Program-made: the position numbers and the translations under genes
Notes under the pieces: model-generated
Database searches by the model: none
Told to the model about the DNA's origin: nothing
What the model saw: the letters and a program-made list of their open reading frames with translations, nothing else
Part shown: positions 1,609 through 12,652 of the stretch, piece by piece
Numbering within the stretch: position 1 is the first letter of the stretch
Layout of the letters: each line of letters opens with the position of its first letter
Assembly (NCBI GenBank): GCA_947493995.1
Contig: CANLTJ010000001.1
Location: 186,001-250,000, forward strand
Origin: an uncultured Arachnia sp.
GTDB lineage: Bacteria > Actinomycetota > Actinomycetes > Propionibacteriales > Propionibacteriaceae
Length of the DNA: 64,000 nt
Reading direction: 5' to 3'

Positions 1609-2250
1609 ATGTCAGGTCCGACCATCCGTGTCGTCGTTGCCGAGGACGATCCGTTGGCCCAGATGGCAATCGAGAGCTACGTGGCACGCGCCGACGACAT
1701 CGAGATTGTGGGCAGCGCCACGGATGGCGCTCCGGCTCTGGAGCTGGTGAAGTCGCTGAAACCCGATGTCCTGCTCACGGACATCCACATGCCGCAGATG
1801 TCAGGGGTCGAGTTGATCCGCAAGGTGTTCGCGCTGACTGATCCGCCACGCGTTCTCTGTTTCACGGTCCTCGGCGACGAACACACGATGAGAACCGCCC
1901 TGGAAGCTGGCGCCAGTGGCTTCCTACTCAAAGTGGATCCACCCGACATGCTGATCCACGGCATCCGCAGTGCCTATCACGGGGACGCGCTGGTCTCCCC
2001 CAGGCTGCTGGCCACCGTGCTCAGGCAGTTCCAGCGCCAGGTTCAGCCACCTGCTGATCTCGGTGAGACCGAATTGGAACTCGTACGCCTTGTCGGCAAG
2101 GGCTTGGACAATGCACAGATTTCCGAGGCCATCTATCTGGCACCCAGTACGGTGAAGACCTACGTCAGCCGGTTGCTTAAAAAGACCCAGTCACACAGCC
2201 GTGCGCAGCTGGCAGCAAAAGCCCACGAATGGGGTTTGGTGGAGAATTAG
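1609..2250 (+). CDS. NarL/LuxR-type response regulator
   Basis: REC domain VVVAEDDPLAQ...VLLTDIHMPQMSGVEL; C-terminal LuxR HTH (ISEAIYLAPSTVKTYVSRLLKKT); ATG 1609 preceded by AGAAGGAG. Confidence 0.92.
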   Translation: MSGPTIRVVVAEDDPLAQMAIESYVARADDIEIVGSATDGAPALELVKSLKPDVLLTDIHMPQMSGVELIRKVFALTDPPRVLCFTVLGDEHTMRTALEAGASGFLLKVDPPDMLIHGIRSAYHGDALVSPRLLATVLRQFQRQVQPPADLGETELELVRLVGKGLDNAQISEAIYLAPSTVKTYVSRLLKKTQSHSRAQLAAKAHEWGLVEN

Positions 2251-2612
2251 GCGGCGCGCATGTGGGTATGGCGGCGGACCCCGGTACTCGGTGGGGGCAG
2301 TGAGTCACCCGGGTCCGCCGCTGTCTGTGGGGGGAATATCGTCAACTCCTCCCGTGCTCGCCGGCGGGAGTCACGGGCGCTGATCCACCACGCCAGGAGT
2401 CCCAACAGCCCTAGGGCCGCGAACACGAAGTCTGTCAACGAGGAGAGCCGGCCCGTGGCTCCCAGGACCAGCAGAAGCACGAAATAAACAGCCGGCACGA
2501 ATGCGCCCAGCCATCCGCGCTCTCGGTTCACCAGCAGCGCCTGTGCCCCGACGAGCAGCAGGAAGACGACGGCGACCAGGAGATACGTCCAGTCCATATT
2601 GGAGAAGTCCAC
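2247..2612 (-). CDS. small membrane protein, three predicted TM segments, unknown function
   Basis: MDWTYLLVAVVFLLLVGAQALLVN...GAFVPAVYFVLLLVLGAT...FVFAALGLLGLLAWWISA; GTG start preceded by AGGGGAG; convergent with the response regulator. Confidence 0.6.
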   Translation of the reverse strand: MDFSNMDWTYLLVAVVFLLLVGAQALLVNRERGWLGAFVPAVYFVLLLVLGATGRLSSLTDFVFAALGLLGLLAWWISARDSRRRAREELTIFPPQTAADPGDSLPPPSTGVRRHTHMRAA

Positions 2613-2762
2613 ATCTCCCCTTTTCGCTGCTCGGCCAGTCTGCTGACAATTCCGCAATCACTGGGTCTTCCGCAGTGACGTGATACAAGCACACACCAAT
2701 CACAGTCACAACACAAATGCGATATGATTAAAGCCGACCGCCAATGAAGATGTGTCGTCGCA

Positions 2763-2812
2763 AGTTGACCCCCAATTGACCACGAGAAGTTGTCATTCCC
2801 CCGTAGTTGTCA
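2763..2812. promoter_or_regulatory. array of TTGACC/TTGTCA-type direct repeats upstream of the 52-aa peptide ORF
   Basis: AGTTGACC (2763), AATTGACC (2774), AGTTGTCA (2788), AGTTGTCA (2805). Confidence 0.4.
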
Positions 2813-2889: not shown

Positions 2890-3048
2890 ATGTTCTCACC
2901 AGATGATGTCACCCCAGCCCTCGCAGCGTTCCCCTACGTCGCGTACACCACCAAGTCAGTCGTCAAGAGCTCGATGGGCGGACGCCTGCTCGCGTCCCGT
3001 CCCGGGTACTGCCGCTGGCTGCCCTGGCTGTGCACACGGTGGGGGTGA
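2890..3048 (+). CDS. 52-aa candidate secreted/modified peptide precursor (putative pheromone or RiPP)
   Basis: ACGGAGGTTCTAATG start context (GGAGG SD); sequence MFSPDDVTPALAAFPYVAYTTKSVVKSSMGGRLLASRPGYCRWLPWLCTRWG; lies between the RR and HK genes. Confidence 0.6.
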   Translation: MFSPDDVTPALAAFPYVAYTTKSVVKSSMGGRLLASRPGYCRWLPWLCTRWG

Positions 3049-3082
3049 GGATTGCAATCAGACACCAGGGTGTTGGTGCCGT

Positions 3083-3088
3083 TATAAT
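3083..3088 (+). promoter_or_regulatory. consensus -10 element (TATAAT) 8 nt before the kinase ATG
   Basis: GTTATAATCAGCAAACATG; no Shine-Dalgarno before the ATG at 3097. Confidence 0.45.
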
Positions 3089-3096
3089 CAGCAAAC

Positions 3097-4284
3097 ATGA
3101 CGGAAACTGCGCGCAGATGGTCCACCGCTGGGTGGCTGGAGCCGCTGGTAAGTCTGATACTTTTCCTGTTCGCCCTCTTGATTAACCAGACCATTTATCA
3201 TCCTTGGTTTTGGGTAGTAGACATAGCAGCATGCGGCGGGGCGGCCATTTCCTACAGACGTCCTGCTGTCGGAGGGGTTCTTGTCGCATTGAGTTTGGCA
3301 TTTTGGCTGCCGCTCGAGAGCCCGATGTCCAGTGCCAGTGGGTTGTCCTTCTACGTCAACATCTTTGCAGCTGCCCGGAGAGATATCGCGTGGAAGACCC
3401 CATTGGTCATGGGACTTATGGGGCTAGGTTATTTGGCTTTGGTCAGGACGTCTATAGAATCGGCCTCTGATCGATGGGCCACCTCAGTCATCCTCCTGAT
3501 TCTCCTTGCCTTGTCGTATGGCGGCGGGGTCGCGTACCGTCGCGCTAGCCAACGCATTGAGCGCGAACGAGAAACCGGCGAGGAGCGGGTGCAGCAACTG
3601 CAGACTGCACTTGCGCGGGAGCTGCACGACAGCGTGGCGCAGACGTTGTCCAGCGCGGCCATGCGTGCCAACATCGTCATGAGCGACCCGAACCTGTCAC
3701 CGATGGCGCTCGGGCAGCTTGAGAAGATTGCAGAAGACTGCAGGTCCTCGGCGCATGACCTGCGCCAGCTTCTCGCAGCTCTGCGTGACGAACCGGATCG
3801 GACCCTGCCGCCCGGTCCCCCAGCCGACGTGGACACTCTCCGCGCCGCTGTCAACGATCAGGCCGAGCGGCTGCGCGCGGAGGGTTTCGACGTGGACGTT
3901 CACTTCGATGTCACGAAGCTGAGCGCGGCACGATGCCAGACTTTGTCCGCCATCGCAGTCGAGGTGGGAAACAACGTCGTGAAGCACGCGAAGCCCGGCA
4001 GCAGGTGCTCGTTCTCCATCCTGCAGGGCGACGAAGACGTGCTGGGCGAATTCAGCAACGAGCGCAAGGATTCCCGAGCAGCGCGGCGGGGGTTCGGCCT
4101 CACAGGCGTTCAGGAACGCCTGGCCCTGCTGAATGGCACGTCGCAGGCAATCGTGAAGGGCGGCCGGTGGATTCTGCAGGTCCGGTTACCGTTCGGCTCG
4201 GACAGCTCGGAGAGCGCCGTCAACTCGCCGCCGAACCCCACGATGTCCGAGGAGTCGATGTTCTCGAGACCCGGGACTTCCTAG
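3097..4284 (+). CDS. multi-TM sensor histidine kinase, HisKA_3 (NarX/DesK-like) type
   Basis: About six hydrophobic segments, phosphoacceptor ARELHDSVAQTLSSAAMRANI, HATPase N-box EVGNNVVKHA, GFGLTGVQERL; stop TAG at 4282-4284. Confidence 0.9.
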   Translation: MTETARRWSTAGWLEPLVSLILFLFALLINQTIYHPWFWVVDIAACGGAAISYRRPAVGGVLVALSLAFWLPLESPMSSASGLSFYVNIFAAARRDIAWKTPLVMGLMGLGYLALVRTSIESASDRWATSVILLILLALSYGGGVAYRRASQRIERERETGEERVQQLQTALARELHDSVAQTLSSAAMRANIVMSDPNLSPMALGQLEKIAEDCRSSAHDLRQLLAALRDEPDRTLPPGPPADVDTLRAAVNDQAERLRAEGFDVDVHFDVTKLSAARCQTLSAIAVEVGNNVVKHAKPGSRCSFSILQGDEDVLGEFSNERKDSRAARRGFGLTGVQERLALLNGTSQAIVKGGRWILQVRLPFGSDSSESAVNSPPNPTMSEESMFSRPGTS

Positions 4285-11195: not shown

Positions 11196-11906
11196 GTGTC
11201 CGTGCCACCGCCGATTGCAGCGACCCAGCTGAGCGTTGAATTCGCTTCTGGAAGAGCTCTGCAGGAGTTGTCGCTGGAGGCCGCTGCTGGACGCGTCACC
11301 GCCCTGCTGGGCCCCAACGGCGCGGGCAAAACCACCTTCATCCGCTGCTGCACAGGTCTGCTGACTCCCGACAGCGGCGAGTTGCACATCTTCGGACATG
11401 TGCCGGGGACGCGTGAAATTCTTCCCCGTGTCGGCCTGATGCCCCAGCAGACGGGCGCCTGGTCCCAGATCACCCCACGCACGCTTCTTCACTATCTCTC
11501 GCAGCTCTATGCTCGCTCCCACTCTTCTGATGTCCTGATGGATCTCTTGGGGATTGACGCTTTTGCCGCCACACCGTACCGACGGCTCTCAGGAGGACAA
11601 CAGCAGCTCGTGAACCTGGCTGGGGCTCTGGTGGGGCGCCCTGAGCTCGTGTTTCTCGACGAACCCACAGCGGGGCTTGATGTCCGTGTCAAGCGTTTTG
11701 TCTGGGACGTGGTGCGCCGGGTGCGCGACGCCGGAGTTGCTGTACTGCTCACCACCCACGACATGCGCGAGGCAACGGAACTGGCCGACGAAGTACACAT
11801 CATTGACCATGGCCGCATCACCGTCAGCGGCACGGTCGGGGACCTGACCCGCCACGAGGATCTCGAGACCGTGTTCCTGAACAACACCACCGGGTCGGAG
11901 ACATGA
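11196..11906 (+). CDS. ABC transporter ATP-binding protein
   Basis: LGPNGAGKTTFIRCCTGLLTPDSG, RLSGGQQQLVNLAGALVGRPELVFLDEPTAGLD; GTG start proposed. Confidence 0.92.
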   Translation: MSVPPPIAATQLSVEFASGRALQELSLEAAAGRVTALLGPNGAGKTTFIRCCTGLLTPDSGELHIFGHVPGTREILPRVGLMPQQTGAWSQITPRTLLHYLSQLYARSHSSDVLMDLLGIDAFAATPYRRLSGGQQQLVNLAGALVGRPELVFLDEPTAGLDVRVKRFVWDVVRRVRDAGVAVLLTTHDMREATELADEVHIIDHGRITVSGTVGDLTRHEDLETVFLNNTTGSET

Positions 11907-12652
11907 CCAGCCTCAACTTCGCGCCCGCCGGTGCCGCGGCGCCACGCTCCCGACAGGTGTGGGGGCACGCCCGTACAGAGGCAGGTCTCATTCTGCGCAA
12001 CGGCGAACAGGCATTGTTGGCGCTGGTGATTCCCATCGGGATTCTCGTCGCCGGACGATTCCTCGGGGCAGGCTTCGGTCTGAACTTCCCGACGCTCGTG
12101 CCGTCCGTTTTCGCCCTTGCCATCTGGTCCTCGTGCTTCACCTCATTGGCCATCGCCACCGGGTTCGAGCGACGCTACAACGTGCTTGAGCGGCTGGCCG
12201 CCACTCCTTTGGGCAAGCTCGGAATCCTGTTGGGCAAGGCCACGGCGATTGCCCTGGTCACAACGCTGCAGCTGCTGGTCCTCGCGATCGTTGCCCTGGT
12301 CCTCGGGTGGCGTCCGGGATTTGATCCTCCGACCCTTTTGGTGGGGGTGGCCGGGTGCGTTCTGGCAGCGGGAGCCTTCGCGGGTCTGGCACTGTCCCTG
12401 GCGGGCACGGCGCGCCCGGAGGTCACTCTGGCCGTCGCCAATCTGGTCTACCTGTTCGGTGTGGTCGCGGGAGCTCTCCTTCTGCCGGTCAGCAGCCATC
12501 CCGGCTGGGCCCAGCCGCTCGTGGCGTTGCTGCCCACTGCCGCTCTCGGCGAGGCCCTGCGCAGCGGTACGCCCTCCAGTCTGATTGTGCTCGCGGTGTG
12601 GTGCGCGGGCACACTGGTTGTTGCACGAAAGGTGTTTCGATGGACGTCATGA
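11903..12652 (+). CDS. ABC-2 type transporter permease
   Basis: Six hydrophobic segments, coupled to the ATPase by a 4-nt overlap. Confidence 0.88.
   Translation: MTSLNFAPAGAAAPRSRQVWGHARTEAGLILRNGEQALLALVIPIGILVAGRFLGAGFGLNFPTLVPSVFALAIWSSCFTSLAIATGFERRYNVLERLAATPLGKLGILLGKATAIALVTTLQLLVLAIVALVLGWRPGFDPPTLLVGVAGCVLAAGAFAGLALSLAGTARPEVTLAVANLVYLFGVVAGALLLPVSSHPGWAQPLVALLPTAALGEALRSGTPSSLIVLAVWCAGTLVVARKVFRWTS

Follow-up and report, generated by a model that had tools for sequence, protein, structure and literature searches.

A short ring-peptide gene beside a DesK-like sensor kinase in an uncultured Arachnia, and a candidate pheromone family in the Propionibacteriaceae

The peptide gene and its orthologues

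The locus analysed here lies in a 64-kb stretch of DNA from an uncultured Arachnia sp. (hereafter, the window) and raises a simple question: is the short ORF that precedes its sensor kinase gene a true gene and, if so, is its product a signal for that kinase? Both had been proposed in an original prediction made from the DNA letters. The 52-aa precursor ORF at 2890-3048 (+) and its strong Shine-Dalgarno sequence (GGAGG, 2880-2884, +), which is conserved in the orthologues, were reproduced exactly; the ATG of the HisKA_3 kinase gene at 3097 is located 48 nt past the peptide stop codon, as described, and the NarL/LuxR-type response regulator reported upstream (Response_reg and GerE domains) is encoded at 1609-2250 (+), an arrangement that is the same in relatives. 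The precursor carries a C-terminal ring signature, Cys41-RWLPWL-Cys48, that is found once in the window when a start preceded by a Shine-Dalgarno sequence is demanded.

A search of 61 whole genomes identified three orthologues of the peptide (E 1e-17 to 1e-20), all from the same genus. They occupy the equivalent position, flanked by an ABC-F gene and the SUF operon, and are accompanied by the same regulator and kinase. Identity among the peptide orthologues is 66-72%, with 22 invariant alignment columns that include both Cys and the ring Pro, and dN/dS values of 0.23-0.46 over codons 2-48 of the congeneric ORFs indicate purifying selection. Absence of the ORF or of its Cys pattern from syntenic relatives had been named in advance as a reason to abandon the prediction; both are conserved there. 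A tblastn match in a Bacteroidales MAG (L031) was discarded as a chance frame within an rRNA-methylase-like gene.

A chance ORF, or a leader ORF with a purely regulatory role, would likewise be short and placed just upstream of a gene. However, the dN/dS values, the conservation of the ring across otherwise unrelated sequences, including those of diverged relatives, and a promoter proper to the kinase downstream of the peptide gene (see below) all argue against this explanation; in addition, many relatives encode their peptide on the opposite strand, so that attenuation is impossible for them. We therefore give this explanation next to no weight: the peptide ORF is a real gene. Two details of the peptide had also been emphasised. 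Double-glycine leader cleavage had to be given up, as the Met-Gly-Gly of the window peptide is not conserved (MQG, LRL and LRL in the orthologues). As for the Cys/Trp tail, the Cys ring proved to be the conserved core, whereas the Trp residues are not invariant and are replaced by Tyr, Phe, Ile or Leu.

Ring peptides beside related kinases

Short ORFs ending in a ring are also carried directly upstream of the kinase by same-family kinase relatives (34-43% identity). These otherwise unrelated-looking ORFs share at their end the consensus core C-x-Phi-Phi-P-x(1-6)-C (Phi, hydrophobic), with variants such as CLLIPYLC, CRILPVLC, CALLPWAC, CRMFPWTC, CKRLPWLC, CDWLPPYFC and CDLFPWLGVC, and the peptide family is invisible to plain sequence search. 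To define a set of close kinases (n = 21), the sensor-domain profile A3 was scored over 199 family genomes: 20 kinases scored 238-314 bits and one 172 bits, all others scoring at most 101 bits. An intact ring peptide is encoded immediately upstream of 17 of the 21, in agreement with the peptide/kinase pairing proposed at the outset, and a frame-shifted one upstream of two more (G016 and G139). Of the remaining two genomes, G002 encodes a pair of Sec-type ring peptides a few kb ahead of its kinase gene, and for G029, which has the close kinase and the regulator (L072), no ring peptide was found in 13 kb. An automated count of 19/21 comprised the 17 intact peptides, a spurious ORF in G002 and one frame-shifted fragment, the other frame-shifted copy being missed. 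A close kinase locus without the peptide, the other finding that had been said to speak against the prediction, is hence seldom encountered. The precursor, the polytopic kinase and the regulator are conserved as a unit, a hallmark of peptide-pheromone two-component systems.

The exceptions deserve a remark of their own. The peptide-less kinase and regulator of L072 may represent an eavesdropper. At the two frame-shifted loci (L073 in G016 and L076 in G139) the kinase and regulator are intact, and the shift may reflect either a sequencing error or signal-negative strains.

A ring peptide, mostly with a Sec-type signal peptide, is also encoded next to about 40 of 69 family kinases that are more distant. 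A strict rule demanded C-x-x-Phi-P-x(1-6)-C close to the C-terminal end of an ORF in the 800 nt preceding the kinase gene, and was satisfied for 14 of the 21 close kinases. Of the 69 further ones, 12 have a matching ORF on their own strand and 30 have one head to head on the other strand, where one locus may count in both figures. The same rule gave no hit for the 29 nearest kinases from other families, taken phylum-wide as those nearest the Sec-type set. Background levels were 1.4% in tiles from the rest of the 64-kb window and 3.5% in random windows from the same loci with no Shine-Dalgarno sequence demanded, the latter being an overestimate because the sampled loci hold real peptides. When the ring rule (x1-5) was combined with a Shine-Dalgarno start, 16 matches were obtained in 290 kb. 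Of these, 15 directly adjoin a kinase gene, and the last (L084) precedes such a gene by about 0.5 kb. A looser C-x5-8-C rule matched 15% of random windows and is thus unspecific alone, which is why the Pro-containing rule was used.

Two wider searches were made. A DNA pattern for C-D-x-x-P-x-W-P-G-C gave no match in 399 phylum genomes, and a looser version gave 17 matches in 15 of 198 family genomes, with none for the reversed-pattern control; four of the 17, lying away from known kinases, look like chance. A sensor-profile search across the class returned only weak matches outside the family, none of them near a credible ring ORF. With respect to known families, neither Pfam nor NCBIfam gave a convincing match for the ring peptide, and no description of a ring-peptide/kinase system was found in a literature search that covered papers outside subscription-only access, in line with the earlier view that the family is undescribed. 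The window peptide is a member of a so far unlisted, fast-changing family of small Cys-ringed peptides that accompanies its own receptor kinases across one actinobacterial family.

Precursor types, sensor domain and promoters

Two types of precursor were distinguished. Many relatives, mostly those beside more distant family kinases, have a cleavable-looking Sec signal peptide followed by a short soluble C-terminal segment with the same ring (e.g., MRKLVIALVTGLFVV...GWCDLFPWLPGC, MRKLVIALVTGLFVVINQQLVAPTASAAEISVVAETELGWCDLFPWLPGC, MKKRLAALGVALAAMLSLVGTPAHAAVPTPAMTTFSVTGFCDWIPVKPFC and MKSLLASIVAVAVLGSGVIPIAAIQGDSLPPWLCNLFPMFCRR). In the Sec-type leaders the N-terminus is positively charged and the hydrophobic stretch is stronger. 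Leaders of the window type mostly begin with acidic residues (positions 1-10 carry a net charge of -1 or -2 in 10 of 12); their hydrophobic stretch is weak and their linker mostly basic, so that, by the positive-inside rule, the C-terminus would stay inside. The proposal of a secreted signal is therefore strongly indicated for the Sec-type relatives, but fits less readily the acidic, non-Sec leader of the window type, and a comparison of neighbours with those of relatives revealed no conserved processing or export gene at the locus. In G022 and G023, WYCLLIPYLCPHR is identical letter for letter although the leaders have diverged, which suggests that the ring segment is the functional product. 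Elsewhere, at L080, tandem Sec-type ring peptides ending in CTYVSRFFCKP and CKYLGIFCRK are encoded at 11351-11564 and 11740-11941 (-).

The kinase (3097-4284, +) has six predicted membrane helices followed by a DesK-like kinase core; the model places the helices at residues 10-32, 36-51, 56-70, 80-95, 100-117 and at the start of 123-195. When the kinase model was submitted to Foldseek, only the kinase core (DesK) was matched, and not the sensor. Ring distance correlated with sensor-domain distance (r 0.50, p 0.0002), and the correlation held when catalytic distance was controlled for (partial Mantel r 0.41, p <0.001); the reverse partial correlation, between ring and catalytic domain with the sensor controlled, was r -0.03. 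Removal of near-duplicates weakened the ring/sensor partial correlation to 0.20-0.37 (p 0.004-0.1, depending on the subset). By these data, ring divergence seems to track the six-TM sensor domain and not the catalytic domain, a signal that is suggestive rather than decisive.

Such covariation would equally fit direct contact with a cell-bound co-sensor, that is, a peptide that remains membrane-bound in the cell that makes it and acts on the kinase there by direct regulation, not as a diffusible signal. Small proteins of this kind exist: MgrB regulates a kinase directly, and the small periplasmic protein DbfQ of V. cholerae, encoded beside a two-component system, is described as regulating it (PMC12714742). 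The N-out/C-in charge pattern of the non-Sec window-type leader and the lack of an exporter at the locus also fit this explanation. However, it leaves aside the many relatives in which a cleavable-looking Sec signal peptide precedes a short soluble ring segment, and the fast diversification of the ring, together with the wholesale replacement of leaders, is the pattern of a pheromone; we consider a cell-bound co-sensor unlikely and retain the secreted pheromone as the preferred reading.

The peptide promoters share a motif. CCRAAGTTGAYC was found in 13 of 19 of them, mostly 107-159 nt before the start (which is approximate for two frame-shifted loci), with a chance expectation of 0.03 per 300 nt. 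The equivalent in the window, AAGTTGACC at 2762-2770 (+), is a candidate response-regulator site to which the NarL-type protein may bind. A strict motif search of four genomes returned few matches, inside genes or without a common target, and at high stringency no other convincing site emerged in the genome of the window; a search allowing one mismatch in six relatives found no convincing second target. In the peptide-kinase spacer, a predicted kinase promoter (CAGACA-18-TATAAT, 3059-3088, +) has a -10 box that starts 14 nt before the ATG. TANNNT is present 12-14 nt ahead of the kinase start in 12 of the 13 loci tested (background, 1.3%). With the -10 box so near the ATG, a leaderless transcript is expected, and the kinase is probably made from such a transcript of its own.

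A small membrane protein with several helices, which falls into no known family, is encoded at 2247-2597 (-), between the regulator and peptide genes; its gene, conserved in the three orthologous loci, is convergent with the regulator gene and divergent from the peptide gene across the candidate regulator site. The small membrane protein is also present beside bPH2 genes in L069. In that locus, a leaderless bacteriocin of the aureocin kind (PF11758, 68.7 bits; ~7.89-8.05 kb, +) is encoded divergently from the peptide, and genes for an ABC ATPase and for bPH2 (YdbS/YdbT-like) proteins lie nearby. L065 has a similar ORF at the equivalent place, below threshold (13.5 bits for a cut-off of 25) and with bPH2 neighbours, and a bacteriocin-like ORF was recognised by eye at the equivalent place in L067. 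No PF11758 match was found in the genome from which the window comes.

That some relatives adjoin leaderless-bacteriocin and bPH2 genes, and that the C-terminus of the peptide is Trp-rich and amphipathic, might suggest that the peptide is itself antimicrobial, a mini-bacteriocin whose level or damage is sensed by the kinase. However, where a bacteriocin occurs it is encoded by an ORF distinct from that of the peptide, immunity and transport genes are absent from most loci, and the peptide promoter has a regulator-type motif. We regard this explanation as quite improbable.

Proposed circuit and known systems

Taken together, the data lead us to favour, with good though not full confidence, an autoregulated, secreted, disulfide-ringed peptide pheromone that is sensed by the adjacent kinase. 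The C-terminal part of the precursor (about GYCRWLPWLCTRWG) would be freed from its leader and exit the cell, and Cys41 and Cys48 would form a disulfide ring of eight residues with Pro at mid-ring. The ring peptide would bind the six-TM sensor domain of the kinase, which would phosphorylate the NarL-type response regulator; the latter would bind sites of the AAGTTGAYC type ahead of the peptide gene, resulting in positive feedback. The regulator may also drive locally linked targets, namely the divergent small membrane protein in the window and the leaderless-bacteriocin/bPH2 genes in some relatives, with the kinase produced separately from its own promoter. On a broader scale, we lean, more cautiously, towards a family-wide, undescribed language of hydrophobic disulfide-ring pheromones in the Propionibacteriaceae, with DesK-like HisKA_3 receptors, two precursor types (Sec and acidic non-Sec), species-specific pairs, and members that are silent, frame-shifted or without a peptide.

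The closest working likeness is ComX-ComP-ComA, yet the window system is not a member of it. Both have a short precursor without a Sec leader, an aromatic pheromone part at the C-terminus of a highly variable peptide, and an adjacent polytopic HisKA_3-type kinase with a NarL/LuxR-type regulator. A published census places comQXPA in Firmicutes only (PMC4008528), a different phylum. The shared layout (precursor of 52-73 aa, polytopic kinase, regulator; PMC4008528) would also suit a ComX-like peptide in which a Trp is prenylated and the residues of the ring are of no account. However, both Cys are invariant and the Trp is not, no ComQ-like isoprenyl transferase gene was found among the neighbours at the loci, and the window peptide has no ComX homology (PF05952; Pfam scan up to E 10), which makes prenylation very improbable and leaves the disulfide ring as the preferred form.

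Agr/Fsr systems share with the window a small ring-bearing C-terminal peptide, an amphipathic leader and a dedicated polytopic kinase. They differ by their thiolactone, in place of which two Cys are found here without a conserved C-terminal tail past the ring, and by their AgrC-type kinase, the present one being of the HisKA_3/DesK-like type; AgrB, already noted as missing nearby, is absent from the whole genome (no PF04647 match). Class II bacteriocin three-component systems likewise encode peptide, kinase and regulator together, and a link to bacteriocin genes exists in some relatives here; however, the Gly-Gly is not conserved, the kinase is of the HisKA_3 type and the bacteriocin linked to the pair is a leaderless one like aureocin A53. 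A leaderless bacteriocin cluster described in Propionibacteriaceae includes a PH-domain protein, an ABC transporter and a response regulator (PMC11580447), a gene set similar to that beside some of our loci. Unlike the kinase-paired loci described here, the main text of that report on Actinomycetota clusters does not mention a histidine kinase, a two-component system or quorum sensing.

The peptide-kinase family looks like a language for signalling between bacterial cells that has not been described before. The Propionibacteriaceae include skin commensals and food organisms, and to our knowledge no peptide/kinase pheromone system has been characterised in this family; in the Actinobacteria, quorum sensing had been reported for only 25 of 342 genera by 2016 (PMC4748050). 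If our reading is true, HisKA_3 kinases would gain a new class of ligand, dozens of matched ligand/receptor pairs would become available at once for tests of specificity and crosstalk, and the control of leaderless bacteriocins would become testable with matched pairs.

One genome, G106, has five kinase matches. Two related kinases lie side by side in its locus L209, and a ring peptide was identified for one of them.
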